From: Acanthopleura granulata
Taxonomy: Eukaryota > Mollusca > Polyplacophora > Chitonida > Chitonidae
Reading direction: 5' to 3'
Assembly: GCA_016165875.1 (NCBI GenBank)
Contig: JABBOT010000010.1
Coordinates: forward strand, 8,587,875 to 8,651,874
Length of the DNA stretch: 64,000 bases
The position numbers and the translations under genes were made by a program. The notes beneath the pieces are model-generated. The model was given only the letters and a program-made list of their open reading frames with translations, did not search any database and had not been told where the DNA came from. This document shows, one piece after another, positions 337 to 57,200 of this stretch. The first letter of the stretch is position 1, and each line of letters begins with the position of its first letter.

Positions 337-3300
337 GTCTGATGACAACGTCACCGTGTCAACACAGAGGCAGAATGAGGAGACTGACACAATCCGGCTA
401 TTACACTTCAGAGCTGTCCACGCACGGAGACAGTTCAGTGATAAGATGCGCCGCTCTGTGTCTTAGTGACCCATCATGCTCCGCAATATCCATGACGTCA
501 CTAAATTCCAGCCTGGCTATGACGAGGGAAGATCGAGGTGTGGCCTGTAGAATATCAGACGGCACCGGGGAGTTTATGTCCGACAGTAAATGGTTCAGCT
601 ATACATTGCAGTCGTACCACCCTGCAGACGGTACATGCGACTCCCGCGTCATTTCAGGTAAAACTTAAATCAGTCTGACGATGTGACATGGGGCAAGTGA
701 TCGAGTGTCCATTTCTGGTAATGTGACCGGTGTTTTGAAAGCTAAACGTATGATTACTGACCCGTAAAGCCCATTTTGGTGGACGGCCGGTATATGAATG
801 TCTGTTTCGATGTCTACATTCAAGATCCAGTGATCTTTGGTTTTGGTCCTTGGACTTAGGCCTATGATCCGGGTTAAAATGTCGGGACTTCAGTCCTTGG
901 GGTTTCTGTCCTTAACCGTGTGAAGGCGTTAATTCCAGCGTAACGCCCTCCTCTAATGCTCTATAGGTCCTACTGCCGACAGATTGCAGCGTTTTATTTC
1001 ATTTCTTTATATAGACCAATTAAGCCTTTCAAATGCATAAAATAGGCCCTGCTCACCAGAGTTTCAATTGTCCACCTATAAGTTATACAATCCAACCATG
1101 TTTCGTCAAGCGCCAGTAAAATTTAGACAGAGCTTTATTTTTCAACAGAAACAACCTTCCCTGCAACAACAACAACGGAAGTCTCAACAACCCCGAGAAC
1201 ATGCCCTTCAGATTTCCTCGTCCTAGACGGAGGCTGTTACAAGTACCACACGGAAAAGAAGACCTGGATGGAGGCCAAAGCAACGTGCGAGTCGGAATCC
1301 AGTCACTTAGTGTGGCTGACGTCATTGAGGGAACATAATCAGATTGCTATTGTTATATACGGCCTCAGAGGAGGTAAGACCGCACATACACGGCGTCTTA
1401 GGAGGTAAGACTAGTCCTACTAATCGTCATGCACGGCGTCAGAGGAGGTAAGACTACACATACTGTCCGTCGTACACGGCGTCAAAGGAGGGAAGACCAC
1501 ACATAGTGACCGTTATACACGGCGTCAGAGAAGGTAAGACTACACGTACTGTCCGTCGTACACGGCGTCGGAGAAGGCAAGACTACACACACTGACCGTT
1601 ATACACGGCGTCAAAGGAGGTAATACTCATACTGGCCGTCTTATACGGCGTGAGAGGAGGTAAGACCACACATACTGACCGTTATACACGGCGTCAGAGA
1701 AGGTAAGACTACACACACTGACCGTCATATACGGCGTGAGAGGAGGTAAGACCACACATATTGACCGTTATACACGGCGTCAGAAGAGGTAAGACCACAC
1801 ATACTGACCGTTATACACGGCGTCAGAGAAGGTAAGACTACACATACGGTCCGTCATACACGGCGTCAGAGAAGGCAAGACTACATATAATGACCGTCAT
1901 ATACGGCGTCAGAGAAACGAAGACTACACATATTGACCGTTATACATGGAGTCAGCGGAGATAGGACTACACATACTAACCGTCATATTTAGCGTCCTAG
2001 GAGTTAAGACTACACATACTAACCGTCATATGTGGTGTCGTAGGAGGTAAGACTACACATGCTGACTGTCATATACGGCATCTGAGGAGGTAAGACTACA
2101 CATACTGACCCTCATATACGGCGTCAGAGAAGGTAAGACCACACATACTGGCCATTATACACGGCGTCAGAGAAGGTAAGACTACACATACTGACCGTCA
2201 TATACGGCGTCCTAGGAGGTAAGACGCCATATGCTGACCGCCATATACGCCATCTGAGGAGATAAGACTACAAATACTAACCGTCATATTTAGTGTCGTA
2301 GGAGGTAAGAGTACACATGCTGACTGTCATATACGGCATCTGAGGAGGTAAGACTACACATACTGACCATCATATACGGTGTCAGAGAAGGTAAGACTAC
2401 ACATACTGACCGTCATACACGGCGTCAGAGAAGGTAAGACTATACATACTGACCGTCATATATGGCGTCAGAGGAGGTAAGACGCCATATGCTGACCGCC
2501 ATATACGTCATCTGAGGAGATAAGACTACACATACTAACCGTCATATGCGGCGTCGTAGGAGGTAAGACTACACATACTGACTCTAATATACGGCCTCAG
2601 AGAAGGTAAGGGTACACATACTGACCGTCATATACGGCGTCAGAGAAGGTAAGACTACACATACTGACCGTCATACAGGGCTTCTGAGGAGGTAAGACTA
2701 CACATACTAACCGTCATATACGGCGTCAGGTGAGGTAAGACTACACATACACGTACCTACCGTCATACACGGCATCAGCGGAGGTAAGACACATACGTAC
2801 CCTTAAATACGGCGTCAGCGGAGGTAAGAGACATACTGACCGTAAAATACGGCGTCAGCGGAGGTAAGACACATACTGACCGTTACGTAAAGCGTCGGCG
2901 GAGGTAAGACACGTACTAACCGTTAAAGACGGCGTCAGCGGAGGTAAGAGACGTACTGACCGTTAAATACGGCGTCAGCGGAGGTAAGAGACGTACTGAC
3001 CGTTAAATGCGTTGTCAGCGGAGGTAAGAGAGGCACGGACCGTTAAATACGGCGTCAGTGAAGGTAAGACACGTACTGACCGTTAAATACGGCGTCAGCG
3101 GAGGTAAGACACTTACGGACCGTTAAATACGGCGTCAGCGGAGGTAAGACAGGTACTGACCGTTAAATACGGCGTCAGCGGAGGTAAGACACTTACGGAC
3201 CTTTAAATACGGCGTCAGCGGAGGTAAGAGACGTACGGACCGTTAAATACGGCGTCAGCGGAGGTGAGACACATACTGACTGTTAAATACGGCGTCAGCG

Positions 3301-5107
3301 GGAGTAAGACACGTACTGACCGTTAAATACGGCGTCAGTGGAGGTAAGACACGTACTGGCCGTTAAGTACGGCGTCAGCGGAGGTAAGAGACGTACTGAC
3401 CGTTAAATGCGTTGTCAGCGGAGGTAAGAGAGGCACGGACCGTTAAATACGGCGTCAGTGAAGGTAAGACACGTACTGACCGTTAAATACGGCGTCAGCG
3501 GAGGTAAGACACTTACGGACCGTTAAATACGGCGTCAGCGGAGGTAAGACAGGTACTGACCGTTAAATACGGCGTCAGCGGAGGTAAGACACTTACGGAC
3601 CTTTAAATACGGCGTCAGCGGAGGTAAGAGACGTACGGACCGTTAAATACGGCGTCAGCGGAGGTAAGACACGTACTGACCATTAAACACGGCGTCATCG
3701 GAGGTGAGACACATACTGACTGTTAAATACGGCGTCAGCGGGAGTAAGACACGTACTGGCCGTTAAATACGGCGTCAGTGGAGGTAAGACACGTACTGGC
3801 CGTTAAATACGGCGTCAGTGGAGGTAAGACACGTACTGGCCGTTAAATACGGCGTCAGTGGAGGTAAGACACGTACTGGCCGTTAAGTACGGCGTCAGCG
3901 GAGGTAAGACATACTGACCGTTAAATACCGTGTCAGCGGAGGTAAGACATGTACTGATCGTTAAATACGGCGCCTATTGCCTCCAAAAGAGAAACAAACA
4001 AAGCTTTACTGTAATAAGTTTAATGGCCTGTACATAACGTTATGAATTCGTTTTACATCAATTTGAGAGCTAAAGCTTAAATATAAAGAGAATCACCATG
4101 TCCTTGTTTAACTTATTTGCGTTGTTGGTTATACCGTGACCGTTAGTGACATGTTGTGAATTTCTTCCCAGCGGGAGTGACGTTTCACGGTGGAGGCAAT
4201 GACATGGACAATAACGGGATATGGGAATGGACAAATGGACAGCCTTTTGGTAAGCCTCAAGACCAGACTGATATTTATACCAATATTTATTTATCTTCAA
4301 TGCCTTAGTCAGTTCGAACATTCCTTACAGGTATATTTATGCGTAATACTTCTCTGTTCTAGCAATAAATCATACACTTGCTTACTCAGGTATTGCGATA
4401 ATCGCCAGATGTTTCTTGTGTAATAGCATTATCCACCTGTTCAGGTAATTAAAGATATAATACAGATATAATACTTGCGAATTGCTAATACTGTAGTTGA
4501 AGTCACAAAACGTAAGAAGATTTCGCCGATAGAAGGAGGGCCCAACCGCAATCTGATTAAAAACAAATCGAACATATTAAACCCTACACTATCAAGCATT
4601 TAACATGCATCACAAGTTACACACGCTCAGTTCACGGCGCCGAGTTAAAATGGTGACACGTACCTCGGAAGGTCCGCCAGAAACCTGCGGATGGTCGTGA
4701 AATTTTGCCCCGGACTTTGCCCGGTTTTCTCCGACCCATAATGGTGGCCGCCGTCATATAAGTGTAAATATATGTAAGTATGTCGTTAATCATCAATCAG
4801 ATTAATAAATAAATAAATCAGAATGTTGGCGTAAGCCACTGTACACTGACCGTTGCTCCCAATTATGGATCACTTTATGTAGGCCTGGGCTTCTAAATTG
4901 ATTGACAAAATAGACAGAAAGTGAATATCAAATCTTTGACATCTACGTTGAATGTATGTGTACGTTTCACTGTTGGCAGATTTCTCGCACTGGGGGGGTG
5001 CCGTTCCGACAGGTGATTGCCTGGTTGTGCCGGTGCATCCTGAGAAATGGACAACCGGAAGCTGCACGTCAGACATGCGCGAATTCATGTGTGAGATTGA
5101 TATTTGA
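337..5107 (+). CDS. PAN/apple-like plus C-type lectin domain protein, 3' four exons (partial)
   Basis: Four exons join in frame: 337-657, 1149-1373, 4172-4249 and 4980-5107 (TGA at 5105-5107). All have GT-AG borders; the three junctions within the window are phase 1. The first exon encodes a Cys-rich module (IRCAALCLSDPSCSAIS, later a Tyr/Phe-rich strand and GTCDSRV) resembling a PAN/apple fold. The second gives a Thr-rich linker, then the start of a C-type lectin domain (CPSDFLVLDGGCYKYH, W-x-EAKATCESE). The third carries the IWEWTNGQPF segment, and the fourth ends the domain with GDCLVVP, KW, SC and FMCEIDI-stop. The family usually binds glycans outside the cell. Here the usual QPD and WND calcium/sugar motifs read QPF and WTT, so classical sugar binding is doubtful. 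The 5' end, including any signal peptide, lies left of the window. The domain calls are from motif recognition; ligand and tissue are unknown. Confidence 0.82.
1352..3975 (+). repeat. Minisatellite spanning lectin exon 2 donor (43-bp then 40-bp unit, about 60 copies)
   Basis: A head-to-tail array begins inside the 3' end of the lectin exon and fills most of the 2.8-kb intron. The exon ends ATATACGGCCTCAGAGGAG and the intron starts GTAAGAC; nearly every unit repeats this as ATACGGCGTCAGAGGAG followed by GTAAGAC. The unit is about 43 bp up to roughly 2760 (with CACATACTGACCGTCAT) and about 40 bp after that (with ACGTACTGACCGTTAA). A block at 3001-3400 recurs almost unchanged from 3401, a 400-bp higher-order duplication. 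So each copy carries an exon tail plus a 5' splice-site-like sequence. Confidence 0.95.
4670..4822 (+). mobile_element. Decayed tRNA-derived SINE, 3' part
   Basis: This fragment matches the 3' half of the fuller SINE at 45.1-45.4 kb: CTGCGGATGGTCGTG, a TGCCCGGTTTTCTC segment, CCATAATGGTGGCCGCCGTC, ATATAAGTG and a terminal AAATAAATAAAT. It sits in the last intron of the lectin gene. The tRNA-related promoter part is missing. Confidence 0.7.
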
Positions 5108-5930: not shown

Positions 5931-5934
5931 TGCC

Positions 5935-9025: not shown

Positions 9026-9029
9026 TCTT

Positions 9030-11510: not shown

Positions 11511-11514
11511 ACTG

Positions 11515-12150
11515 GTTCAGGTGTTGATGTCACACAGCTGCCTGATGGTGTCAGCATAGCTTTTTGATGATGTTGATGTCAGCAGAGCTGTATGATGGTG
11601 CTGATATCAGCATAGCTGTCTGATGGTATGGAGGTCAGCTCAGTTGCCTGATGGTGTGGATGTCAGCACTGATGTCTGATGGTGTAGATGTCAGTACATC
11701 TGTCTGATGATGCTGATAGCACATCTGTTTGATGATGTTGATGTCTGCATAGCAGTATGATAGTGCTGAGGTCAGCACAGCTGTCTGATGGTGTTTATGT
11801 CAGCACAGTAGTCTCATAGTGTTGATGTTAGCATAGCTGTTTGATGGTATTGATGCCAGTATAGCTGTCTGATGGTGACGTCAGCTTAGCTGTCTGATGG
11901 TACTGACGTCAGCACATGTGTCTGATGATGTGGATGTCAGCACAACGGTCTGATGGCGTTGATGTCAGCACAGCAGTCTGATGTTGTTGGTGTCAAACAG
12001 CTATCTGATGGTTCTGATGTCCGAACATCTGTCTGACGATGTGGATGTCAGCACAGCTGTCTGCTGGTGTTAATGTCAGCATAGCTGTTTGATGGTGCTG
12101 ATGTCAGTACAGCTCTCTGATGGTGTGGATGTCAACACAGCAGTCTGATT
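11515..12150 (-). repeat. Minisatellite spanning the WDR81 stop codon (about 28-bp unit, about 22 copies)
   Basis: On the minus strand the last WDR81 codons are ATCAGACTGCTGTGTTGA, ending in the stop at 12134-12132. From there the sequence continues as about 22 tandem variants of CACCATCAGACAGCTGTG followed by CTGACATCAA. The unit therefore contains a diverged copy of the terminal codons IRLLC-stop plus the first bases of the 3' UTR. The array would lie in the 3' UTR of the mRNA. Confidence 0.9.
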
Positions 12151-15100
12151 GTGCCATTGTCAGCTCCTAGCAACAGGGCTCTGTTCATAGGTAGAACGTT
12201 CATACAAGTCAGCACACCTTTAAATGTGTCGCTTCTCAGTCTGGTGCTGGTAAAGGAATGCTGTAAATAAAGTACCCAAAAGAATGTGTAAATCAAGCAT
12301 CAAACGCAATTTATATACTAGTTAGTTTCTGACTTTTATCATTTTAAATTGGCATGAAAAAGAAAATTCAACGAAAAACATTGTATCCTTTCGTTTTTCT
12401 GTCCAACTTCTATTTTTGTTCCCACAATATGGTTGAGATACTGGCGACATAGCATTAAGCCATCATCATTCCTTCAATTTTTGTATGTGCAGCAAGAAAT
12501 ATAAATCCCTTTCTGACACATTTTACTGGGTTACAATATTTCATTGTATTGTTAGGCACTAATGATGTAACAAGACTTTTTTTTTCCTTGTGATTTTTCT
12601 AAAATATCAGGATTAAATGGTCAGCATAGCTGTTTACATTCACCAGTGAACTTCAGAAGAATGTTCAAGTTAAAAATTTCCCATATACATGCAGGGCACC
12701 CTGAAGTCTGCCTTAGAATTCAAAAGACATGTACTTAAAAGCACTTTTAATTCTATTCAAGAAAGCTTTTAAAAGTAACTGAATACACTTTTCAGAAGTG
12801 CGTTTTATGAAAACAACTTCTTTTTTATGTGTATTTTCCTTTAAGATATAATACAAGCTGACTTGGGCACTGTGGTACAAAAAACGGCAAAAAAATCATG
12901 TTTAACTAGGACAGAGGACAACTTACATGTGCTTCCACAGAACTATGGACTCCTATCTTATTGGCAGTGGTGGCTGTGATGATCTGATGATTGTAGAAGC
13001 TCAAACAGTGGACTGGCTCAGACGGACCTACAGTACAAATACACACACATTGGTCTGTCAACCATATGCATTTGGCAGGAACATGAAGTTTAATAGTTTG
13101 ACTGCTGAAATTTCTTTTATTTTATACTTTTGTCACACAATAAAATAGGTAAAATAATAACTCAGCAGCAGTAGAAAAATGAGCATGTGATTCAGTATAA
13201 ATGAGTTCATAGAGTTCAATCAGATCCTAAACTTATATCCTCCACCCATGATGGCCGGATTGTCAGAGTATGACCCTCTGACCATAAAACGACCATACAC
13301 TGACCACGGGCCAATAGTGAACAAATTTGCCATCACTATCGGCATGTCATCCGGCCATCATACATGGATGATGACTGGATCATGGTGCCACAATGCGCAT
13401 ATGATTATGGGACATCACCCGGCATGCATCACTTCCATATTCTAGCCTTAGTTTAAAGATACATATTTATTTTACTATCTTGTAAAACTGTGATAACTAT
13501 GTAAAAGTCTTTCTAATTCTGATAAATTGGCACAACTTTAGTTCCAAAGCCTTCTACGGACAAAATTCATAATCAGCTTTTGTAAATCTGTCATGGCCGT
13601 AACGAAATATCTCAACCTGTGGCAGTTTTGCATGAGGGAGCTCCATAAGGTCATATCATTGTCTTCAGTATACTGCTTATGTACTGATTACAGTGTTTCT
13701 CAAAAATAAGAGGCGACAGCCTTATGATCCTCTTCAGTGATCTCAAATTGGCACCTTTTGCATGTAGCAGCGCTTTAAGGTGGCATCTGTAAGGTAACAT
13801 CTGTAAGGTAACATCTGTAAGGTCACATCATTATGTTCATCACACTGCTCCATGCAGTCAATGCAAACTTAAGCTTGTCGAAAATAGGACATAGCAACCT
13901 TTCGATCCTCATCTGAGAGGCACAAGTTGAAAATGGCGAACAACTTTCCATTCTCCTGAATGGAGTAAATAGTAATGTCAAGAAAACACATCAGCTGGGG
14001 ACAGAGGCCAAGTGCTAGATACAGTAGCTGGGTATGTCACATTATCATGGCCTGACAAATGACAAAAAGTCATCAGATGAGTTCAATTTGTGTTCACATG
14101 ACTGAAATCAGTACATCTGAATGATCGGTGTGCCCAAAATCGGTACCTTCTAATGACAATAAACTCTAATGAGCATACGCCGGTCATTCAGCAATCACCC
14201 ACGGATGATGGCCGGAGGATCACGGAGCGAGGGGAAATGATCGGCGTTGGGTGAGCCGAGGGTTAGCATATCCTAAGGCTATGATGGGCATAGAATTTAA
14301 GGTTAGGATCCAACTGTACTGTACATCATTAAGGCATAAAGTGGAAAGGTCCTTACCTCTGAAGTGAGAGACATCTTTCCCATCATCTACCTTCCATAGC
14401 TTGATGGACTGGTCAAAGGAAGTTGTCACAAAACTGTTCTTATTGTAGGCCTTAATCTGAAACAGCCATGGGTCAGAAGCCGCTCAAGACTCATAAATAC
14501 CAAATACATGTGCAAGACACACTTCAGACTTTTTTCAAATCAGTTAATTTTTTATTATTCTTCTTGTCTGTTTCAGTTCAAGGTAGGATATCACAGTGCA
14601 CTGTGAACTTTTTCTTCAGTTCAAGCCATGGTTCCTTATACTAGGAAGCTATCACATGTAAAGTGTGACCCATTATTCTCCATAGTTACCATGCTTTTTG
14701 GTCGTAAGTACATGTGGTAACAGATTACTTCTCCTCTTTGACAAGCGTTTCTGTCTGGTAGGATCATACAAGCTTCTTTCTGCTCTAACCTCACCTGTAG
14801 TATTTCCCCATCATGTCCCTTCCAGGCCCCCAACAGCAGCCCAGTCCTGAGGTCCAGCACGGCCAGGAGGCCTGTGGAGTAGCCCATGGCCACCCAGTCT
14901 GAACTGGGACTCACCGTCACACATCGGATCAGCCCTGTAATAAACCAACACATCAGATCTGCCACGTAACAAATTATAAACGCATCACATAAGCCATGTA
15001 TAAACAAATCAACACACTGAGCCAGCCCTGTAACAAATCAACACACTGAGCCAGCCCTGTAACAAATCAACACACTGAGTCAGCATTGTAACACACCAAA

Positions 15101-18100
15101 AGATCAGATCAGCCATGTATGAACAAACCAACACACTGAGCCAGTCCTGGAGCAAACTATTAACACATCAGATCAGCCATCTATAAACAAAAACACACAC
15201 TGAGCCAAGCCCTGTAACAAACTGACACACTGAGTCAGCCTTGTAACACACCATCACACTGAGTCAACCCCGTAACAAACCAAAACAATGGGTCAGCCCA
15301 GCAACAAACCAACACGTCAGATCAGCCATCTAAGACACCAGCATACTGGTTCAGCCCTGTAACAAACCAACACACTGAGTCAGCCCTGTAACAAACCATC
15401 ACACTGAGTCAACCCTGTAACAAACCATCACACTAAGTCAGCCCTGTAGCAAACCAAAATATTGGGTCAGTCCTGTAACAAACCAACACAATGAGTCAGC
15501 CCTGTAACAAACCAACATACTGGGTCAGCTCTGTAACTAACCAACACATTGAGTAAGCCTGATAACAAACCAACACAATGGGTCAGCCCTGTACCAAACC
15601 AAGCCATCAGATCAGACAAACCAACACACTGGGTCAGCCCTGTAACAAACCAACACACTGAGCCAAGCCCTGTAACAAACTGACACACTGAGTCAGCCTT
15701 GTAACACACCATCACACTGAGTCAACCCCGTAACAAACCAAAACAATGGGTCAGTCCAGCAACAAACCAACACGTCAGATCAGCCATCTAAGACACCAGC
15801 ATACTGGGTCAACCTTGCAGCAAATCAACACATCATATCAGCCCTGTAACAAACCAACACACTGAGTCAGCCCTGTAACAACCCAACACACTAAGTCAGC
15901 CCTGTAGCAAACCAAAATACTGGGTCAGTCCTGTAACAAACCAACACAATGAGTCAGCCCTGTAACAAACCAACATACTGGGTCAGCTCTGTAACTAACC
16001 AACACATTGAGTAAGCCTGATAACAAACCAACACAATGGGTCAGCCCTGTACCAAACCAAGCCATCAGATCAGACAAACCAACACACTGGGTCAGCCCTG
16101 TAACAAACCAACACACTGAGTCAGCCCTGTAACAAATCAACATATCGATTCAACCCTTTAACAAACCAACACATAAATTCAATCCTTTAACAAACCAACA
16201 CATCAGATTAGCCCTGTAACAAACTATAAATACATCACATCAGCCCTGTAACCAAGACATCAATCCAACTCAAAAACCAACCAACACATTGGATCTGCCT
16301 TATAACAAACCAACACCTCAGACCAACTCAGTAAAAAATCAACACATCAAATCAACCCTGTAATAAAACAACACATCAAATCAACCCAATAACCAACCAA
16401 CACATTGGATCAACCTTATAACAAACCAACATATCAGATCAGCCCTGCAATAAAACAAGCCAATAAAAAACCAGCACACTGCAGACCTGTAACAAACCAA
16501 CACAGAGGATCAGCCTTATAACCAACCAATACATAGGAACAACCCTGTAACAAAAGAAAGAAGCCAAAAATATACTTACCTGAGGAATTTGAAGTACACT
16601 TGAACTCATGAGCATACTTAGGACCGCGCAGGTCCAGAAACCTACAACAAAGCACAGATTTCATATCTTCTGAAATACCCAAATTGCTGTGATATGCATC
16701 CACTCTTCCACTGGTTTATGCTTGTTCGTTTCAAGTGCTTTCAAGACAGTTAACATTTCAGTGGAGACTCAACTGGTCTGTACATGTAGGGTACAAATTC
16801 TTTCTAACATACAAGTTCTGTCTTGCCTAAAATGGAATTATAAGACTGGATCAATGGAGAAATTCTTTATATTTTAACCCTGACGTTGCGTTTTGCATCA
16901 ACACCTATCAACCAATTCATAAAATATATTTTTCCAAATGTTTGTTTTAATAATAAGATAATTTGAGACTCAAAATTTGGAAAATGGTTAACATTAGGCA
17001 ATGCAATACCTAAAACCATGTGTAAACATCTGCACCTGATACTTGAAACAACTACTAAAAAAGAATTAAAAAATCACTTATTTATCTGATAAGGGTTCAA
17101 TGCCATACTCAACAATATTCCAGTTACGTGACAGTAGTTAGGTTTATGATTGGTGGAAAGACAAATTTATTTGCTGAGAAGAAGGAATCAGGTTTACTAC
17201 CTGAGCGTGCCCTCGGTGGTGGCAGTCATCAGGTGGGGATTTGGGGCCGGCAGCGGGGAAAGGGCCAGCACAGGGCTGTGCTTGGAAGAGTCTAGCTGAC
17301 TGACCACCATTGCTGTAAATGGGTCCCAGATCTGACCAATACAAAAACAGTATACATATCAGGTTGGCACAAGACATGTATACATATATCTAACGTTCTG
17401 TAAGACCCCTGGTGTGTTTTCTGAAGGTCAGATTAACACTGTGCACAGGTATGCTGCTTGATACAGTTTATGCCACAGATAGCAGGTAAAACACCCATGT
17501 CAATCCTCTGACACACTACTACATACATGTTCCGTTTATGCCACAGATAGCAGGTAAAACAACCATGTCAATCCCCTGACACATTACTACATACATGTAC
17601 GGTTTATGCCACAGATACCAGGTAAAACAACCATGTCAATCCTCTGACACACTACTACATACATGTACGGTTTATGCCACAGATAGCAGGTAAAACAACC
17701 ATGTCAATCCCCTGACACATTACTACATACATGTTCGGTTTATGCCACAGATACCAGGTAAAACAACCATGTCAATCCCCTGACACATTACTACATACAT
17801 GTACGGTTTATGTCACAGATACCAGGTAAAACAACCATGTCAATCCCCTGACACATTACTACATACATGTAGGAGTATAAAACTGAACATTTTCTGCAGG
17901 GTACAATTTTTGCTATTAAACAATGAACATTTCTTCTGACTTCAGAATCATGTACCCATTCTGTAATACATCAACAGGAATAATTTGTACTCTGTTTATA
18001 AGCCAGAAGCCTCCCACCAATGCGGTCGCTGTGAGTGCAAGCCCAGCTCATGCTGGCTTCCTCTCCAGCCATACAAAGGAAGGTCGATCAGCAACCTGCG

Positions 18101-42200: not shown

Positions 42201-45200
42201 ATCTGTTCTGTGCACAACACCTCATGGTGGGCCTATATATACATGTATTATTACCGATCTGTTCTGTACACAACACCTCAAGGTGGGCCTATATATACAT
42301 GTATTATTACCGATATGTTCTGTACACAACACCTCAAGGTGGGCCTATATATACATGTATTATTACCGATCTGTTCTGTACACAACACCTCAAGGTAGGC
42401 CTATATATACATGTATTATTACCGATCTGTTCTGTACACAACACCTCAAGGTAGGCTTATATATACATGTATTATTACCCATCTGTTCTGTGCACAACAC
42501 CTCATGGTGGGCCTATATATACATGTATTATTACCGATCTGTTCTGTACACAACACCTCGAGGTGGGCCTATATATACATGTATTATTACCGATATGTTC
42601 TGTACACAACACCTCAAGGTGGGCCTATATATACATGTATTATTACCGATCTGTTCTGTACACAACACCTCAAGGTAGGCCTATATATACATGTATTATT
42701 ACCGATCTGTTCTGTACACAACACCTCAAGGTAGGCTTATATATACATGTATTATTACCGATCTGTTCTGTACACAACACCTCAAGGTAGGCCTATATAT
42801 ACATGTATTATTACCGATATGTTCTGAACACAACACCTCGAATTGGGCCTATATATACATGTATTATTACTGATATGTTCTGTACACAACACCTCAAGGT
42901 ATATCAAGGTCTTGATATTGGTACTTGTGTATGTAACTTGTGATTTCAGGGAAGTTTCAGGACAGAGTCTGACAGTTTTGGGGATCTCCAGGTGCCTGCT
43001 GACAAGTACTATGGAGCCAATACAGCCCGATCTCTGATCAACTTCAACATTGGAGGAGAGCAAGAACGAATGCCTGTAAGTACTGTGCTTATCTAATACA
43101 TGTGCATTAGTTTACTATGACACACCTAGAATATCATATGGATGAATTTATACTGCTGTTTCAGATGTCTTTAAACTGTTGAAGTCAAATGGGGATTATA
43201 CATAAAAGCTGGATTCTGTTATTGAGTTTTGTGTTAATAGTCAGTTGGCATGCCGTCTATTGAAGGCAAGCATTCCCATGACCTAAAGTACGAAGCTGGT
43301 AATATGCTAGTAATGGTTTGTATGAAAGATTTCTGATGCCCCTTAAATCAGTCAAGCATGTTTTTAAATGTTTGTAAACATAAGTACATGTTTTTCAAGT
43401 TCTGTAATGTGTCCTGTAGGCTCCGGTAATCTGTGCATTTGGGACGTTGAAAAGAGCTGCTGCCCAAGTGAATCAAGAGTATGGGCTAGACGCTGAACTT
43501 GTGGAGGTGATTGTACAGGCAGCAGATGAGGTAAACAAGAAACCTGTATTGTACAGCTGATCAAAGCAGCCCCAGGTCTTCTTTGACACATGGCTGCAGG
43601 TAGATCGTGCCAGTGGAATCAGTCTGTCCTCCATTACCCCCCTCGTTACTCAGATAAGTCGTCCTTGTTCAAATTATCAACAGCTGTATTTACCATCCAG
43701 CCACTGCCGCTGTCCGCCCATCAACGATTGAATCAGTTACAAACCCTTTTAGCACTTACATATACTGTGCACAGGCATATAATTCAACCAATTAGGCAGT
43801 AGGTCAGTTATTAATTGAATAAGTAAACAAAAGCTTTTAGAGCTTTAACATACTAACTGTCAACAATTGTAAAACCAGTTACTCAGTTGTTCCCCTTAGT
43901 GATTGAATTAGTAAGTCAGCTGACCCAGTCAGTCAGTTTATGATCAAATGAGGAAAACTCCCCAGCGGAGCACCCAGTCAGTCAGTGAACTAATGACCGA
44001 CTGAGTGAATGAGTGAGCGTGTGTTTCAGGTGAGGTCTGGGAAGCTGTACAGTCACTTCCCCTTGGTTGTCTGGCAGACAGGCTCAGGTACTCAGACCAA
44101 CATGAACGTCAATGAGGTCATCAGTAACCGGGCGATCGAGCTCCTGGGGGGTCAGCTGGGCAGTAAGATACCTGTCCACCCTAACGACCACGTCAACATG
44201 AGCCAGGTGAGCCAGAATATTCTGCATGCAAATTATGTTAAAAACTGTCATGCTTTACTCTGCTCCCAATGTGAAAATAAATGTACACTTAAATATGTGT
44301 AATTTAGATCTAGTATGTATCAGTAACATGTATCATTTTGGAATGAGAGTTCACATGTGCAGGAAGAAAATCTATAACAGATATTATACTGAAATTCCCT
44401 GCTGCAAAAGACACCATATATAAAAGACAGTTGTATACTATGTCAACTTCAAAATAAACTCCAATTCTGTCTCCAATCATATATTGTGTAGCATTGAGTG
44501 AAATACTGTACAATAATAGTATTCTGTTCCAGAGTTCAAATGACACATTTCCAACAGCAATGCACATAGCCGTGGCCACGGAGATAGATAAAGTGTTGTT
44601 TCCAGGACTGAAGCTGTTGCAGCAGGCCATCCAATCAAAATCAGAAGAATTTAAGGATATTATCAAGATTGGAAGAACCCATTGCCAGGTGATGTGAGGC
44701 TTTCAGTCCATAATGTTGCAGAAGAGCCTTAAATGAAATCTCTACAAAACACACAGTGGGTTTCAGTCCCTGGTTTTCTATATTAAAATGGAAGGAGAGT
44801 ACCCACACTGTGCCATTAATACAGCCTACCACAGGCACTCTACCAGTATATCTTGATAAGTGGTCACTAGTGTGACAAGTTCAAATTCAAAACCAGCTTG
44901 TGGCAGATCAACTCTGGCTTTGTGTTCTGTAGCCTGGTACATTTGTTATTAATGATAATGCTGTGGTGATTTTGTTTCCCGTGTTAAAATCTTTGGCATG
45001 AAATGACCTTGTGATATTGAACAAGTTATATGTATTTACAGTATGACACAAAGCAGTACTGTTATCAAGCACTCTTAGTTATGGGGTGGGGGCCTTCATG
45101 GCCTGGTTGGTTAGCGCAACAGCACAGCGCAATAACCCAGGAGCCTCCCACCAAAGTGGTCGCTGTGAGTTCAAGTCCTGCTCATGCTGGCTTCCTCTCA

Positions 45201-48200
45201 GGCAGTACGTGGGAAGGTCAGGCTGCCAGCAATCTGCAGATGGTCGTGGGTTTCCTGTAGACTCTGTTCGGTTTCCTCCCACTATCAAACTATAATGCTG
45301 GTCGCCGTCGTATAAGTGAAATATTCTTAAGTACGGCGAAAAACACCAATCAAATAAATAAATAACTAGTTAGGAGCCTATTGGTTTACGTACTGTCTTG
45401 GTAGTTACTTGCATGTAATGCTGTGCACAAGTATGTTGAACCAGAGACACACGCTTAAAACACACTTGTATATTTTGTGCTGAAAACCTGGTTTGTCTGT
45501 TCCCTGTTTCAGGATGCAGTGCCTTTGACGTTAGGCCAGGAGTTCGGGGGCTATCTACAACAGCTGACCAATGGTGTGCAGAGGGTCAAGTCCACTCTGC
45601 CCAGATTGTACCAACTGGCTGCTGGTAGGCAAATTGGGTTTTTTTGTGTGGATACAGATAATGTCATGGCAACACAATGGCATTTACTTACACCTGTTGT
45701 TTTAATAAGGACATGTGGGATATCCTTCACCCTGAGAGCAGGACATGGCTCACCGGTCAGCCGTGGGTTCAGTCCCTGTCTAGGGCTCTAGCTACAGTGC
45801 TTGTCATTTCTAATTTCACTTGCCCTTGTTCATAGGGACAACAGTAAGAGTTTGATGGTACCTTGTAACTGTACATCAGTACAGTTACATCACCTGGCTG
45901 TCGTTTCTCTCATGTAGCCATGAATTGCAGTAAGACTAGAGGTGTATCCCTAATTATATGGTCAGTTTTATGTGCCCTACCTGTTTGGCTAGTTGAGTAT
46001 GTCGTGAGTATGTGTAACTGTTTTTACCCTACAGGAGGAACAGCTGTGGGTACTGGCCTCAATACCAGAGTGGGATTTGCAGAGAAAGTCGCTGAGAAGA
46101 TTGCCACACTCACAGGTAGCAATTAAATCGTTTCAGTTCCTTCATGATGGTGTAGGAGTCTTTGTACTCAAGGCATGTCTCTGTGAACACCCATACTTGA
46201 CTGCTGCTATACAAGTGAAACACTAATAAGTTAATGAATGATTAAATCAGTATCATTGCAATTTACTCTGTCGTCATTGAGGCAACATATTTTTGTCTAA
46301 CCAGTTTTCTTGCTATATACACTCTACTGGTTGTATATCTCCCACATGTAGTCCTGTATGCACCTCAATGATGCAATATCTATTTGCACAGGATTACCAT
46401 TTGTGACAGCAGAGAACAAATTTGAGGCTTTGGCATCCCATGATGCTCTAGTAGAGGTACACGGAGCTCTGAACGTGTTAGCGGTGAGCCTGATGAAGAT
46501 AGCCAATGACATCAGGCTGCTTGGGTCAGGGCCTCGGTGTGGGCTGGGGGAACTCTCTTTGCCAGAGAATGAACCAGGGAGCAGTATAATGCCAGGTAAG
46601 TTACACCGTCTGTCTGCTGTGGTGAGGGCCTGACTGGGGACTGGGGAAACTCCCTCTGTCAGAGAATGAACCAGGGAGCAGTATAATGCCAGGTAAGTTA
46701 CACCGTCTGTCTGCTGTGGTGAGGGCCTGACTGGGGACTGGGGAAACTCCCTCTGTCAGAGAATGAACCAGGGAGCAGTATAATGCCAGGTAAGTTGCAC
46801 CGTCAGTCTGCTGTGGTGAGGGCCTGACTGGGGACTGGGGAAACTCCCTCTGTCAGAGAATGAACCAGGGAGCAGTATAATGCCAGGTAAGTTACACCGT
46901 CTGTCTGCTGTGGTGAGGGCCTGTGTGTGGACTGGGGAAACTCTCTGTGCCAGAGAATGAACCAGGGAGCAGTATAATGCCAGGTAAGTTACACCGTCTG
47001 TCTGCTGTGGTGAGGGCCTGACTGGGGACTGGGGAAACTCCCTCTGTCAGAGAATGAACCAGGCAGCAGTATAATGCCAGGTAAGTTACACCGTCTGTCT
47101 GCTGTGGTGAGGGCCTGACTGGGGGCTGGGGGAACTCTCTTTGCCAGAGAATGAACCAGGGAGCAGTATAATGCCAGGTAAGTTACACCGTCTGTCTGCT
47201 GTGGTGAGGACTTCTCTGTGGACTGGGGAAACTCTCTCTGCCAGAGAATGAACCAGGGAGCAGTATAATGCCAGGTAAGTTACACCGTCTGTCTGCTGTG
47301 GTGAGGGCCTGACTGGGGACTGGGGAAACTCCCTCTGTCAGAGAATGAACCAGGGAGCAGTATAATGCCAGGTAAGTTACACCGTCTGTCTGCTGTGGTG
47401 AGGGCCTGACTGGGGGCTGGGGAAACTCCCTCTGTCAGAGAATGAACCAGGGAGCAGTATAATGCCAGGTAAGTTGCACCGTCAGTCTGCTGTGGTGAGG
47501 GCCTGACTGGGGACTGGGGAAACTCCCTCTGTCAGAGAATGAACCAGGGAGCAGTATAATGCCAGGTAAGTTACACCGTCTGTCTGCTGTGGTGAGGACC
47601 TGTGTGGACTGGGGAAACTCTCTCTGTCAGAGAATGAACCAGGGAGCAGTATAATGCCAGGTAAGTTACACCGTCAGTCTGCTGTGGTGAGGACCTGTGT
47701 GTGGACTGGGAAACTCTCTCTGCCAGAGAATGAACCAGGGAGCAGTATAATGCCAGGTAAGTTACACCGTCTGTCTGCTGTGGTGAGGACCTGTGTGTGG
47801 ACTGGGGAAACTCTCTCTGCCAGAGAATGAACCAGGGAGCAATATAATGCCAGGTAAGTTACACCGTCAGCTGTGGTGAGGACCTCTTTGTGGGCTGGGG
47901 AAACTCTCTCTGCCAGAGAATGAACCAGGGAGCAGTATAATGCCAGGTAAGTTACACCGTCTGTCTGCTGTGGTGAGGGCCTGACTGGGGACTGGGGAAA
48001 CTCCCTCTGTCAGAGAATGAACCAGGGAGCAGTATAATGCCAGGTAAGTTACACCGTCTGTCTGCTGTGGTGAGGGCCTGACTGGGGACTGGGGAAACTC
48101 CCTCTGTCAGAGAATGAACCAGGGAGCAGTATAATGCCAGGTAATTACACCATCTGTCTGCTGTGGTGAGGGCCTGACTGGGGACTGGGGAAACAGAGAA

Positions 48201-51200
48201 TGAACCAGGGAGCAGTATAATGCCAGGTAAGTTACACCGTCAGTCTGCTGTGGTGAGGGCCTGACTGGGGACTGGGGAAACTCTCTCTGCCAGAGAATGA
48301 ACCAGGGAGCAATATAATGCCAGGTAAGTTACACCGTCTGTCTGCTGTGGTGAGGGCCTGACTGGGGACCGGGGAAACTCCCTCTGTCAGAGAATGAACC
48401 AGGGAGCAGTATAATGCCAGGTAATTTACACCGTCTGTCTGCTGTGGTGAGGGCCTGACTGGGGACTGGGGAAACTCTCTGTGCCAGAGAATGAACCAGG
48501 GAGCAGTATAATGCCAGGTAATTTACACCGTCTGTCTGCTGTGGTGAGGGCCTGACTGGGGACTGGGGAAACTCCCTCTGTCAGAGAATGAACCAGGGAG
48601 CAGTATAATGCCAGGTAAGTTACACCGTCAGTCTGTTGTGGTGAGGACCTGTGTGTGGACTGGGGAAACTCTCTGTGCCAGAGAATGAACCAGGGAGCAG
48701 TATAATGCCAGGTAAGTTACACCGTCTGTCTGCTGTGGTGAGGACCTGTGTGTGGACTGGGGAAACTCTCTCTGCCAGAGAATGAACCAGGGAGCAGTAT
48801 AATGCCAGGTAAGTTACACCGTCTGTCTGCTGTGGTGAGGACCTGTGTGTGGACTGGGGAAACTCTCTCTGCCAGAGAATGAACCAGGGAGCAGTATAAT
48901 GCCAGGTAAGTTACACCGTCTGTCTGCTGTGGTGAGGGCCTGACTGGGGACTGGGGAAACTCCCTCTGTCAGAGAATGAACCAGGGAGCAGTATAATGCC
49001 AGGTAAGTTACACCGTCAGTCTGCTGTGGTGAGGACCTGACTGGGGACTGGGGAAACTCCCTCTGTCAGAGAATGAACCAGGGAGCAGTATAATGCCAGG
49101 TAATTTACACCGTCTGTCTGCTGTGGTGAGGGCCTGACTGGGGACTGGGGAAACTCCCTCTGCCAGAGAATGAACCAGGGAGCAGTATAATGCCAGGTAA
49201 GTTACACCATCTGTCTGCTGTGGTGAGGACCTGTGTGTGGAGTGGAGAAACTCTCCCTGGTAGAGAATGAACCAGGGAGCAATATAATGCCAGGTAAGTT
49301 ACACCGTCAGTCTGCTGTGGTGAGGGCCTGACTGGGGACCGGGAAACTCCCTCTGTCAGAGAATAAACCAGGGAGCAGTATAATGCCAAGTAAGTTACAC
49401 CGTCTGTCTGCTGTGGTGAGGGCCTGACTGGGGACTGGGGAAACTCTCTCTGTCAGAGAATGAACCAGGGAGCAGTATAATGCCAGGTAAGTTACACCGT
49501 CAGTCTGCTGTGGTGAGGACTTCTCTGTGGACTGGGGAAACTCCCTCTGTCAGAGAATGAACCAGGGAGCAGTATAATGCCAGGTAAGTTACACCGTCTG
49601 TCTGCTGTGGTGAGGGCCTGACTGGGGACTGGGGAAACTCTCTGTCAGAGAATGAACCAGGGAGCAGTATAATGCCAGGTAAGTTACACCGTCTGTCTGC
49701 TGTGGTGAGGGCCTGACTGGGGACTGGGGAAACTCTCTGTGTCAGAGAATGAACCAGGGAGCAGTATAATGCCAGGTAAGTTACACCGTCTGTCTGCTGT
49801 GGTGAGGGCCTGACTGGGGACTGGGGAAACTCCCTCTGCCAGAGAATGAACCAGGGAGCAGTATAATGCCAGGTAATTTACACCGTCTGTCTGCTGTGGT
49901 GAGGGCCTGACTGGGGACTGGGGAAACTCCCTCTGCCAGAGAATGAACCAGGGAGCAGTATAATGCCAGGTAAGTTACACCATCTGTCTGCTGTGGTGAG
50001 GACCTGTGTGTGGAGTGGAGAAACTCTCCCTGGTAGAGAATGAACCAGGGAGCAATATAATGCCAGGTAAGTTACACCGTCTGTCTGCTGTGGTGAGGAC
50101 CTGTGTGTGGAGTGGAGAAACTCTCCCTGGTAGAGAATGAACCAGGGAGCAATATAATGCCAGGTAAGTTACACCGTCTGTCTGCTGTGGTGAGGACCTG
50201 TGTGTGGAGTGGAGAAACTCTCCCTGGTAGAGAATGAACCAGGGAGCAATATAATGCCAGGTAAGTTACACCGTCAGTCTGCTGTGGTGAGGGCCTGACT
50301 GGGGACCGGGAAACTCCCTCTGTCAGAGAATAAACCAGGGAGCAGTATAATGCCAAGTAAGTTACACCGTCTGTCTGCTGTGGTGAGGGCCTGACTGGGG
50401 ACTGGGGAAACTCTCTCTGTCAGAGAATGAACCAGGGAGCAGTATAATGCCAGGTAAGTTACACCGTCAGTCTGCTGTGGTGAGGGCCTGACTGGGGACT
50501 GGGGAAACTCCCTCTGTCAGAGAATAAACCAGGGAGCAGTATAATGCCAGGTAAGTTACACCGTCTGTCTGCTGTGGTGAGGGCCTGACTGGGGACTGGG
50601 GAAACTCCCTCTGTCAGAGAATGAACCAGGGAGCAATATAATGCCAGGTAAGTTACACCGTCAAATCTGCTGTGGTGAGGACCTCTTTGTGGGCTGGGGA
50701 AACTCTCTCTGCCAGAGAATGAACCAGGGAGTAGTATAATGCCAGGTAAGTTACACCGTCTGTCTGCTGTGGTGAGGGCCTGACTGGGGACTGGGGAAAC
50801 TCCCTCTGTCAGAGAATGAACCAGGGAGCAGTATAATGCCAGGTAATTTACACCGTCTGTCTGCTGTGGTGAGGGCCTGACTGGGGACTGGGGAAACTCC
50901 CTCTGTCAGAGAATGAACCAGGGAGCAGTATAATGCCAGGTAAGTTACACCGTCTGTCTGCTGTGGTGAGGACTTCTCTGTGGACTGGAGAAACTCTCTC
51001 TGTCAGAGAATGAACCAGGGAGCAGTATAATGCCAGGTAAGTTACACCGTCTGTCTGCTGTGGTGAGGGCCTGACTGGGGACTGGGGAAACTCCCTCTGC
51101 CAGAGAATGAACCAGGGAGCAGTATAATGCCAGGTAAGTTACACCGTCTGTCTGCTGTGGTGAGGACCTGACTGGGGACTAGGGAAACTCCCTCTGTCAG

Positions 51201-54200
51201 AGAATGAACCTGGGAGCAGTATATTGCCAGGTAAGTTACACCGTCTGTCTGCTGTGGTGAGGGCCAGACTGGGGACTGGGGAAACTCTCTGTGCCAGAGA
51301 ATGAACCAGGGAGCAGTATAATGCCAGGTAAGTTACACCGTCTGTCTGCTGTGGTGAGGGCCTGACTGGGGACTGGGGAAACTCCCTCTACCAGAGAATG
51401 AACCAGGGAGCAGTATAATGCCAGGTAAGTTACACCGTCTGTCTGCTGTGGTGAGGGCCTGACTGGGGACTGGGGAAACTCCCTCTGTCAGAGAATGAAC
51501 CAGGGAGCAGTATAATGCCAGGTAAGTTACACCGTCTGTCTGCTGTGGTGAGGGCCTGACTGGGGACTAGGGAAACTCCCTCTGTCAGAGAATGAACCAG
51601 GGAGCAGTATAATGCCAGGTAAGTTACACCGTCAGTCTGCTGTGGTGAGGACCTGACTGGGGACTAGGGAAACTCCCTCTGTCAGAGAATGAACCAGGGA
51701 GCAGTATAATGCCAGGTAAGTTACACCATCTGTCTGCTGTGGTGAGGGCCTGACTGGGGACTAGGGAAACTCCCTCTGTCAGAGAATGAACCAGGGAGCA
51801 GTATAATGCCAGGTAAGTTACACCGTCTGTCTGCTGTGGTGAGGGCCTGACTGGGGACTAGGGAAACTCCCTCTGTCAGAGAATGAACCAGGGAGCAGTA
51901 TAATGCCAGGTAAGTTACACCGTCAGTCTGCTGTGGTGAGGACCTGACTGGGGACTAGGGAAACTCCCTCTGTCAGAGAATGAACCAGGGAGCAGTATAA
52001 TGCCAGGTAAGTTACACCGTCTGTCTGCTGTGGTGAGGGCCTGACTGGGGACTAGGGAAACTCCCTCTGTCAGAGAATGAACCAGGGAGCAGTATAATGC
52101 CAGGTAAGTTACACCGTCTGTCTGCTGTGGTGAGGGCCTGACTGGGGACTGGGGAAACTCCCTCTGTCAGAGAATGAACCAGGGAGCAATATAATGCCAG
52201 GTAAGTTACACCGTCAGTCTGCTGTGGTGAGGACCTGACTGGGGACTAGGGAAACTCCCTCTGTCAGAGAATGAACCAGGGAGCAGTATAATGCCAGGTA
52301 AGTTACACCGTCTGTCTGCTGTGATGAGGGCCTGACTGGGGACTGGGGAAACTTCCTCTGTCAGAGAATGAACCAGGGAGCAATATAATGCCAGGTAAGT
52401 TACATCGTCAAATCTGCTGTGGTGAGGACCTCTTTGTGGACTGGGGGAACTCTCTCTGCCAGAGAATGAACCAGGGAGCAGTATAATGCCAGGTAAGTTA
52501 CACCGTCAGTCTGCTGTGGTGAGGGCCTGACTGGGGACTGGGGAAACTCCCTCTGTCAGAGAATGAACCAGGGAGCAATATAATGCCAGGTAAGTTACAC
52601 CGTCAAATCTGCTGTGGTGAGGACCTCTTTGTGGACTGGGGAAACTCTCTCTGCCAGAGAATGAACCAGGGAGCAGTATAATGCCAGGTAAGTTACACCG
52701 TCAGTCTGCTGTGGTGAGGACTTCTCTGTGGACTGGAGAAACTCTCTCTGCCAGGGAATGAACCAGGGAGCAGTATAATGCCAGGTAATTTACACCGTCT
52801 GTCTGCTGTGGTGAGGGCCTGACTGGGGACTGGGGAAACTCCCTCTGTCAGAGAATGAACCAGGGAGCAATATAATGCCAGGTAAGTTACACCGTCAAGT
52901 CTGCTGTGGTGAGGACCTCTTTGTGGACTGGGGAAACTCTGTCTGTAAGAGAATGAACCAGGGAGCAGTATAATGCCAGGTAATTTACACCGTCTGTCTG
53001 TTGTGGTGAGGGCCTGACTGGGGACTGGGGAAACTCCCTCTGTCAGAGAATGAACCAGGGAGCAATATAATGCCAGGTAAGTTACACCGTCAAATCTGCT
53101 GTGGTGAGGACCTCTTTGTGGACTGGGGAAACTCTCTCTGTCAGAGAATGAACCAGGGAGCAGTATAATGCCAGGTAAGTTACACCGTCAGTCTGCTGTG
53201 GTGAGGACTTCTCTGTGGACTGGAGAAACTCTCTCTGCCAGGGAATGAACCAGGGAGCAGTATAATGCCAGGTAAGTTACACCATCTGTCTGCTGTGGTG
53301 AGGACCTCACTGGGGACTGGGGAAACTCTCTCTGTCAGAGAATGAACCAGGGAGCAATATAATGCCAGGTAAGTTACACCGTCAAATCTGCTGTGGTGAG
53401 GACCTCTTTGTGGACTGGGGAAACTCTCTCTGCCAGAGAATGAACCAGGGAGCAGTATAATGCCAGGTAAGTTACACCGTCTGTCTGCTGTGGTGAGGGC
53501 CTGACTGGGGACTGGGGAAACTCCCTCTGTCAGAGAATGAACCAGGGAGCAGTATAATGCCAGGTAATTTACACCGTCTGTCTGCTGTGGTGAGGGCCTG
53601 ACTGGGGACTGGGGAAACTCCCTCTGTCAGAGAATGAACCAGGGAGCAGTATAATGCCAGGTAAGTTACACCATCTGTCTGCTGTGGTGAGGGCCTGACT
53701 GGGGACTGGGGAAACTCTCTCTGTCAGAGAATGAACCAGGGAGCAGTATAATGCCAGGTAAGTTACACCGTCAGTCTGCTGTGGTGAGGACTTCTTTGTG
53801 GACTGGGGAAACTCTCTCTCCCAGAGAATGAACCAGGGAGCAGTATAATGCCAGGTAAGTTACACCGTCAGTCTGCTGTGGTGAGGACTTCTCTGTGGAC
53901 TGGAGAAACTCTCTCTGCCAGGGAATGAACCAGGGAGCAGTATAATGCCAGGTAAGTTACACCGTCAGTCTGCTGTGGTGAGGACTTCTTTGTGGACTGG
54001 GGAAACTCTCTGTCAGAGAATGAACCAGGGAGCAGTATAATGCCAGGTAAGTTACACCATCAGTCTGCTGTGGTGAGGACCTCTGTGTGGGCTGGGGAAA
54101 CTCTCTCTGCCAATGAACCAGGGAGCAGTATAATGCCAGGTAAGCTCCACTGTCTGTCTGCTGTGGTGAGGACTTCTCCGTGGACTGGGGAAACTCTCTC

Positions 54201-57200
54201 TGTCAGAGAATGAACCAGGGAGCAGTATAATGCCAGGTAAATTATACCGTCAGTCTGCTGTGGTGAGGACTTCTCTGTGGACTGGAGAAACTCCCTCTGT
54301 CAGAGAATGAACCAGGGAGCAGTATAATGCCAGGTAAGTTACACCATCAGTCTGCTGTGGTGAGGACTTCTCTGTGGACTGGGGAAACTCTCTCTGTAAG
54401 AGAATAAACCAGGGAGCAGTATAATTCCAGGTAAGTTACACCATCAGTCTGTTGTGGTGAGGACCTCTCTGTGGACTGGGGAAACTCGCCCCGCCAGAGA
54501 ATGAACCAGGGAGCAGTATAATGCCAGGTAAGTTACACCGTCAGTCTGCTGTGGTGAGGACCTCTTTGTGGGCTGGGGAAACTCTCTCTGCCAGAGAATA
54601 AACCAGGGAGCAGTATATTGCCAGGTAAGTTACACCGTCAGTCTGCTGTGGTGAGGACCTCTTTGTGGGCTGGGGAAACTCCCTCTGTCAGAGAATGAAC
54701 CAGGGAGCAGTATGATGCCAGGTAAGTTACACCATCAGTCTGCTGTGGTGAGGACCTGTGTGTGGGCTGGGGAAACTCTCTCTGCCAGAGAATGAACCAG
54801 GGAGCAGTATAATGCCAGGTAAGTTACTGTCAGTCTGCTGTGGTGAGGACCTCTGTGTGTGGACTGGGGAAACTCCCTCTGTCAGAGAATGAACCAGGGA
54901 GCAGTATAATGCCAGGTAAGTTACACCATCAGTCTGCTGTGGTGAGGACCTCTCTGTGGACTGGGGAAACTCGCCCCGCCAGAGAATGAACCAGGGAGCA
55001 GTATAATGCCAGGTAAGTTACACCGTCAGTCTGCTGTGGTGAGGACCTCTTTGTGGGCTGGGGAAACTCTCTCTGCCAGAGAATAAACCAGGGAGCAGTA
55101 TATTGCCAGGTAAGTTACACCGTCAGTCTGCTGTGGTGAGGACCTCTTTGTGGGCTGGGGAAACTCCCTCTGTCAGAGAATGAACCAGGGAGCAGTATGA
55201 TGCCAGGTAAGTTACACCATCAGTCTGCTGTGGTGAGGACCTGTGTGTGGGCTGGGGAAACTCTCTCTGCCAGAGAATGAACCAGGGAGCAGTATAATGC
55301 CAGGTAAGTTACTGTCAGTCTGCTGTGGTGAGGACCTCTGTGTGTGCACTGGGGAAACTCCCTCTGTCAGAGAATGAACCAGGGAGCAGTATAATGCCAG
55401 GTAAGTTACACCATCAGTCTGCTGTGGTGAGGACCTGTGTGTGGACTGGGGAAACTCTCTCTGTCAGAGAATGAACCAGGGAGCAGTATAATGCCAGGTA
55501 AGTTACACCTTCAGTCTGCTGTGGTGAGGACTTCTCTGTGGACTGGGGAAACTCCCTCTGTCAGAGAATGAACCAGGGAGCAGTATAATGCCAGGTAAGT
55601 TACTGTCAGTCTGCTGTGGTGTGGACTGGGGAAACTCCCTCTGTCAGAGAATGAACCAGGGAGCAGTATAATGCCAGGTAAGTTACACCATCAGTCTGCT
55701 GTGGTGAGGACCTGTGTGTGGACTGGGGAAACTCTCTCTGTCAGAGAATGAACCAGGGAGCAGTATAATGCCAAGTAAGTTACACCGTCAGTCTGCTGTG
55801 GTGAGGACTTCTCTGTGGACTGGGGAAACTCCCTCTGTCAGAGAATGAACCAGGGAGCAGTATAATGCCAGGTAAGTTACACCATCTGTCTGCTGTGGTG
55901 AGGACCTCACTGGGGACTGGGGAAACTCTCTCTGTCAGAGAATGAACCAGGGAGCAGTATAATGCCAGGTAAGTTACACCATCAGTCTGCTGTGGTGAGG
56001 ACCTCTGTGTGGGCTGGGGAAACTCTCTCTGCCAATGAACCAGGGAGCAGTATAATGCCAGGTAAGTTACACCGTCTGTCTGCTGTGGTGAGGGCCTGAC
56101 TGGGGACTGGGGAAACTCTCTGTGCCAGAGAATGAACCAGGTAAGTTGTGTCATCAATCAGCTGTGGTGAGGGTCTCGCTGATTTGTTTGGATTTTATGT
56201 AAGGTTTAACCCCTCAGGAGTTAGCTCATAAGGGACGTGAAGGTTCACGTGGTGAATTTAAGTCATACAGCAAATTAAGCGATACAACTGAATGTTATAT
56301 TAAGGATACCCCTTGTTATCCAAATTTCACATTAGCCCAAAATATAGATCAAATATGGCCATATGTATATATATTCTGAAGGCTAAACAACTCCTACTTC
56401 CAAAAAAGCTTTTAAAATTTGCCTAAGTTAATATTAATCAAAATAAATAGAAAGTTTGACAAAAATCAGAGCTTTTTTTTGTCCAGTTTTCAACATTTTC
56501 CAGCTTTTCTTACTATTTAAACTAAAAAACGTCCCACAGATTTTTACTATTCATCTTAGATTGTTCTGAAGGATCATTTAAAGGTGAAACTTTCAAAAAA
56601 AAAAAAAAAGTTTTTGGAACTTTGATTTTCTTCTACTAATATCTTAATATTTAAAAAAAAGACATCAAAAATTTGTAAGGGTGTTTTTTGTGCGTTTAGT
56701 ATTTAGCTAAATTTTTGCCAAGTTTTACCGCATTATGTTGAACAATAAGTGAGAAATAAGAAGTATTTCATCACACAACCGTCTTAAAAAGAGAAAGGGA
56801 GAAGAAGACCAAAATATCTGGAGGAGCATTATGTGTGACAAAATTCATTATCAGTTCATTTACCAATTAATTTTAATCATGAGCTGCCCTGCCTCTAGTT
56901 AACGTGAACATATCTACTTATGTTAAATTTTAAAACTTATCATGTTCCATGAAAGCTTAAATTGGCGTTTTATCTTAACATTTCTGATCAAAACCTGCTA
57001 AAAAGTGTTTATAAACCCCTTCCCCATTGGCACCCCATGTGGTGATTAACGCAGTTGTTTTAATGAAAAGGTTTGCCTGAGTAATCTGCACAGCCAACCA
57101 AGCACAGTCAGTAGCAGGAGGCAATACACATTTACTAAAGGCCTGTCAATTCACAGCACGTAACCCCCTCCCCTCAGTGAGCCAATCCCATAATCAGGTG

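Follow-up and report, generated by a model that had tools for sequence, protein, structure and literature searches.

We analysed a 64,000-nt stretch of the genome of the chiton Acanthopleura granulata (hereafter the window; contig JABBOT010000010.1, forward-strand positions 8,587,875 to 8,651,874), in which three genes, encoding a C-type lectin, WDR81 and fumarate hydratase (fumarase), lie among tandem-repeat arrays, several of which run across the edges of their coding exons. Ten strong arrays were delineated with Tandem Repeats Finder (TRF) at a score of at least 150, overlapping rows being merged, and together they occupy 17750 bp, or 27.7% of the window; a weaker set of six arrays scored between 51 and 125. 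All seven arrays named in an earlier note on this DNA (A1 to A7, with periods of 43/40, 28, 29, 117, 42, 88 and 97 bp) were recovered by TRF at about the same places, and three further arrays away from exon edges (N1 to N3) complete the strong set. The extents of some arrays were widened beyond the TRF call by homology (Table 1), and the repeats are head-to-tail and of minisatellite type.

The gene models on which the arrays were placed comprise 76 coding-sequence edges, 72 of them splice edges, and coding exons totalling 8192 bp, which at 12.8% of the window agrees with the previous estimate of about one eighth. Exon limits were set by hand from splice consensus and open frame, with protein homology as support (E. 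coli FumC for fumarase and 11 spiralian WDR81 proteins for WDR81), and the resulting models require no exon within any array.

Table 1. Tandem arrays and genes of the window, with positions counted from its first nucleotide
Feature	Positions	Strand	Description
A1	1352..3972	+	unit 40/43 bp, ~63 units; over donor of lectin exon 1149-1373, edge 1373; TRF
A2	11530..12164	-	unit 28 bp, ~23 units; over WDR81 stop codon 12134-12132; TRF
A3	14919..16570	-	unit 29 bp, ~57 units; over acceptor of WDR81 exon 14934-14795; TRF extent 15003-16570
A4	21668..22116	-	unit 117 bp, 3.8 copies; over donor of WDR81 exon 22165-22050; TRF
A5	26431..26925	-	unit 42 bp, 11.8 copies; ends 2 nt before acceptor AG of WDR81 exon 26428-26289; TRF
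A6	32804..33583	-	unit 88 bp, 8.8 copies; over donor of WDR81 exon 34742-33519; TRF
A7	46517..56141	+	unit 97 bp, 99 units; over donor of fumarase exon 46392-46595; TRF extent 46544-56141
N1, non-edge	17462..17871		68 bp x 6, within WDR81 intron
N2, non-edge	19537..19645		27 bp x 4, within WDR81 intron
N3, non-edge	41928..42901		56 bp x 17.4; ends 49 bp before fumarase exon 42950-43075
C-type lectin gene	337..5107	+	four exons modelled: 337-657, 1149-1373, 4172-4249, 4980-5107; 5' end not located
WDR81 gene	12132..37700	-	26 exons, GT-AG ends, 2015 aa, one terminal stop, no inner stop; best matches annotated WDR81
Fumarate hydratase gene	42950..57898	+	eight exons modelled, first not located; 463 aa plus stop, frame open throughout

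The analysis of unit content reveals that six of the seven named arrays carry, within the repeated unit, the end of the coding exon that they adjoin. When the exon side of each edge together with 12 intron bases was aligned to the tandem consensus, exonic sequence was recovered over 22 nt in A1 (27/29 identity), 33 nt ending with the stop codon in A2 (37/45), 67 nt in A4 (73/77), 65 nt in A6 (73/77) and 79 nt in A7 (78/91), and the homology of A3 reached 16 nt into its exon (25/27). This observation is strengthened by a comparison with random sequence, as the edge alignments of A1, A2, A4, A6 and A7 scored above all 400 random windows. The six arrays involve four splice donors, one acceptor and one stop codon, and in all of them the authentic edge sits in the unit nearest the exon. 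A3 occupies nearly the entire WDR81 intron 16579-14935, leaving about 9 nt outside on the donor side, and at that donor end no exon sequence was found in its unit. The earlier description of all seven units as an exon end joined to a splice site or stop codon is upheld for these six, with 16 to 79 exonic nt, and is not confirmed in that form for A5, the consensus of which is without exon. Nor do only a few clear arrays lack exon sequence, as had been proposed: three of the ten strong arrays are without it, and none of the six weaker arrays lies over a modelled edge.

Taken together, we consider it probable that the arrays are mirage-type minisatellites, a class described from amphioxus, here in a mollusc genome: tandem duplications across exon edges that were expanded by unequal exchange and tolerated outside the coding exon. 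The direction of the change can be read at four edges. Eleven other spiralian WDR81 proteins share the coded residues at 14934 (A3), at 33519 (A6) and at the stop, and 11/11 of those aligned end at the same residue as the protein of the window; the fumarase edge of A7 is shared with E. coli FumC. At these places, therefore, the exon predates the array, which arose from it. Relative to the same 11 proteins, the WDR81 protein is free of insertions across the array-bearing junctions 33519 and 14934.

In each of the six cases, the founding duplication would have run from a breakpoint within the coding exon to one in the neighbouring intron or 3' flank, with the authentic edge retained in the unit that adjoins the exon body, so that the protein would be left unchanged. 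The extra copies would then lie beyond the coding exon, where unequal exchange and slippage may have multiplied and homogenised them without hindrance; copies in an intron or past a stop would presumably be harmless to the protein, and arrays inside exons would not be tolerated. Splicing is expected at the authentic site only, and each array was probably seeded independently. The excess of edges may have come from the seeding or retention of GC-rich exon-edge sequence, combined with tolerance of copies in introns, and not from any dedicated machinery. Base composition is consistent with such a source: GC content ranges over 0.45-0.54 among the units of the six clear edge arrays and over 0.37-0.41 among those of N1-N3, exons standing at 0.493 and non-coding DNA outside arrays at 0.370. 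In 5/6 edge arrays, the portion of the unit that belongs to the intron or 3' flank is itself rich in GC (0.44-0.57).

The copies carry many spare splice signals. GT is intact in 99/99 units of A7, 8/8 of A6, 4/4 of A4 and 55/63 of A1, AG is intact in 33/57 units of A3, and TGA in 17/23 of A2. The best-kept dinucleotides of A6 and A7 include GT, but many others equal it, and many A7 positions are as invariant as GT; the first two bases to the right of the junction have a conservation rank of 0.79 in A1 and 0.62 in A3. Because other unit positions are equally well kept, retention of the splice dinucleotide is not evidence of selection, and there is no sign either way of selection on the decoy sites. 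An in-frame stop follows the authentic donor at 32 nt in A1, 8 nt in A4, 12 nt in A6 and 35 nt in A7, so that use of a decoy would as a rule spoil the protein. In A1, 31 nt separate the authentic donor from the first decoy; that decoy comes immediately ahead of the stop at 32, and its use would give a frame shift rather than a stop.

The internal structure of the longer arrays bears on how they grew. Within A7, stretches of up to 409 bp recur exactly at a lag of 485 bp (five units) and further long exact repeats occur at larger lags, which is a sign of recent block duplication, and A3 has a higher-order period of 458 bp that is 96% identical. Judged from the sequence, both patterns are as unequal exchange would give. 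Units of A7 are mostly 1-16% off their consensus; the authentic copy differs from that consensus at 13/91 positions, more than nearly all inner units do, and the exon was thus not the template for homogenisation in this array.

The earlier note knew of no described system of this kind, a view that the amphioxus literature corrects: amphioxus mirages are tandem repeats over exon-intron boundaries (PMC3087553, PMC3902484). In their passages on mirages, these papers report them from the globin genes BflGb6 and BflGb9 (Ebner et al. 2010, PMC3087553), with PGBD5 added and troponin C cited in PMC3902484, and from Adh3 (Canestro et al. 2002, as cited in both papers), two further loci being cited. Unit lengths are given as 10-72 bp for Adh3, 150-160 for BflGb6, 157 for BflGb9, and 60 and 108 for PGBD5. 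Splice signals are said there to be kept in many copies, reverse-transcription PCR suggests regular splicing in amphioxus, the reported traits include haplotype copy-number variation and somatic instability, and the authors of PMC3087553 describe the mechanism as unclear.

The arrays of the window resemble the mirages so described in that units span exon edges, unit length varies by locus and many copies keep splice signals. The unit lies over an exon-intron boundary in A1, A3, A4, A6 and A7, and weakly so in A5; unlike mirages, A2 lies over a stop codon. Copy number also differs, with 99 units in A7 compared with 3-6 in BflGb6 and 2-7 in PGBD5 as reported for amphioxus. The host, too, is a mollusc and not a cephalochordate, a matter of the reported distribution of mirages that is not strictly defining. 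Of 665 WDR81 matches, the best among the 120 listed are molluscs (Haliotis, scallops and Gigantopelta, at 44%), and three Branchiostoma entries stand at 35-36% identity. In a 29-row WDR81 tree the window falls inside a 14-row mollusc clade (10 named molluscs, 3 further rows and the window) with a Shimodaira-Hasegawa-like approximate likelihood-ratio test (SH-aLRT) value of 100. A 25-row tree likewise recovers a mollusc clade including the window (100/100), within which gastropods plus bivalves form a group with the window outside it (100/99); the grouping of octopus plus the rest is weakly supported (82/56). The WDR81 comparisons thus reject amphioxus as the host, and the position outside gastropods plus bivalves makes an aculiferan (chiton or aplacophoran) likely.

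Two other reported cases help to place these arrays. In a potato RdRp gene, a tandem duplication likewise crosses an intron-exon boundary (PMC4974935, in the part dealing with that gene); unlike that case, the window shows no new intron, the copies enlarging an existing intron or 3' flank and reaching high number. The 27-bp repeat in intron 3 of an abalone TSSK1-like gene, an ordinary mollusc intronic minisatellite, resembles N1-N3 as a short-unit array inside a mollusc gene intron, and its description in the relevant part of PMC6905558 makes no mention of an exon edge in the unit, unlike the edge arrays here. For a chiton genome, TRF repeats are given as 9.21% of the sequence in PMC11545220. 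Among open-licence papers, and within the wording used for the search, no earlier case of exon-edge arrays in a mollusc was found. Such arrays are not new in kind; here they appear in a further animal phylum, the molluscs, and densely clustered.

Several observations weigh against reading the arrays as mirage-type duplications of exon edges. The exon end at the A4 edge is poorly conserved, and the exon-first direction is claimed only for A3, A6, the WDR81 stop and the fumarase edge. The GC contrast is drawn with three non-edge arrays. A5 has a unit GC of 0.36 and almost no exon sequence: its consensus contains no exonic nt, the match stopping 2 nt before the acceptor AG. The 11-mer TACAG|GTGTGT, with 6 exonic nt, recurs in five units of A5 besides the edge itself (6 matches across the window, 0.15 expected); TACAGGTGTGT is found at the exon edge and in five units. 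Some units thus reach no more than 6 exonic nt, and A5, holding at most a trace of exon, is a weak acceptor case. The window is, moreover, a single 64,000-nt stretch chosen for its array pattern, so the P values below are not genome-wide. Finally, the null of random whole-array placement is not rejected: under random circular shifts, a mean of 4.87 of 10 arrays lie over an edge, with P(>=6)=0.31 and P(>=7)=0.13.

That last result bears directly on chance combined with ascertainment, by which arrays are common (27.7% of the window), genes are exon-dense, and the choice of a window finds such a case. Whole-array overlap is unremarkable because the arrays are long, the ten strong ones covering 17750 bp, and the exons dense. 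A different outcome was obtained when each array was collapsed to one ancestral unit and wholly exonic placements were excluded, using a strict count of 6 without A5 and a lenient count of 7 with it (5 and 6 for splice edges only). By this null, 1.05 of 10 units are expected on an edge, with P(>=6)=1.4e-4 and P(>=7)=7.9e-6. Restriction to genic spans raises the expectation to 1.69, with P of 2.0e-3 for six and 1.9e-4 for seven; splice edges only give 1.3e-3 (5) and 1.0e-4 (6), or 1.4e-2 and 2.0e-3 within genic spans; and addition of the six weak arrays, on an edge map without edge 12132, gives 5.1e-4 and 4.6e-5. The earlier claim that seven edges are far from chance holds, then, for ancestral units and not for whole arrays. 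Since the window was picked for the pattern and unmodelled exons raise the expectation, the true strength of the excess is lower; over-representation of edges among ancestral units is supported for this window, and we regard chance with ascertainment as a possible but somewhat unlikely account of it.

The main rival is a splice- or transcription-linked mutational hot spot, in which breaks, caused for instance by R-loops, by pausing of the polymerase or by the sharp change in GC where exons end, would be repaired by local duplication, thereby nucleating tandem duplication at exon boundaries. The 6 or 7 of 10 ancestral units on edges, the involvement of both donors and acceptors, and the same structure in amphioxus, another phylum, all fit such a process. 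It is nonetheless unlikely in our judgement: scoring of cryptic tandem duplication within 600 bp of the 68 edges outside arrays put none (0/68) beyond the 99th percentile for non-coding controls (mean duplication score 17.28, against 18.05 in those controls and 17.02 in exon interiors), one array sits on a stop codon, a place without an expected splice site, A5 is nearly devoid of exon, the whole-array test does not reject chance, and selection of GC-rich seeds would also fit, given the GC-rich intron or flank portion of 5/6 units. Alternatively, edge arrays may be over-counted because the constrained exon copy preserves their recognisable form, whereas arrays lying wholly in introns decay. 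The retention of GT in nearly all donor-array units agrees with such anchoring, which is nevertheless improbable, as many other A7 positions are just as invariant and the exon was not the template in A7. An assembly artefact in repetitive sequence, to which the 9.6-kb A7 with its exact internal repeats would be prone through miscounting, is very improbable because units differ within each array and the same type of error would be needed in seven unrelated arrays, although the counts of copies could still be in error. A mobile element or introner family, for which related sequence would be sought at different sites, is exceedingly improbable. Among the 45 pairs formed by the units of the ten arrays, 5 scored above all 100 composition shuffles, by small margins, but the best score, 24, corresponds to a match of only about 12 nt, and every unit matches its own exon edge. 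The earlier conclusion that the arrays are unrelated and not one transposon is thereby confirmed, the ten consensus units having only short local matches in common.

If such arrays at exon edges form in both molluscs and amphioxus, they would represent a recurrent route of animal intron growth and of the build-up of spare splice sites rather than a cephalochordate curiosity. A stronger version, which we hold to be rather doubtful, is that tandem duplication is repeatedly seeded at exon edges in widely separated animal phyla, cephalochordates and molluscs at the least, where a shared splice- or transcription-linked mutational process would produce arrays of decoy sites, some with about 100 copies in 10 kb, enlarge introns and feed intron evolution. 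Whether exon edges are hot spots of tandem duplication is a question testable in any long-read mollusc or amphioxus genome, and the presence of up to 99 intact copies of one donor provides a natural test of how the spliceosome chooses among many identical sites.

Further observations concern the gene models and the remainder of the window. The lectin gene is identified by a Lectin_C Pfam match at E 8.2e-11. In WDR81, exon 26428-26289 encodes two residues more, just after its acceptor, than the 11 aligned spiralian WDR81 proteins, and a second AG lies 12 nt downstream of acceptor 26428, the use of which would preserve the frame. Over 33507-34805, protein P0001 is 87% identical across the WDR81 exon (66% of the query) and its reading continues past the donor, from which it follows that this sequence derives from genomic DNA of a close relative. 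The possibility that N3 conceals a donor array belonging to fumarase exon 1 was considered, and N3 was not counted as an edge: it showed no homology to the edge of exon 42950-43075 (score 10, null maximum 26), and in our reading its donor-like AAG|GTAGG would give the wrong phase for the supported exon-2 start. A coding-like open frame of 111 codons at 63464-63796 had no Pfam match at E 0.1. Lastly, the translations of open reading frames at 4635-4796, 18051-18242, 36165-36479, 36947-37174 and 58796-59017 look alike by eye and may represent a dispersed repeat family.

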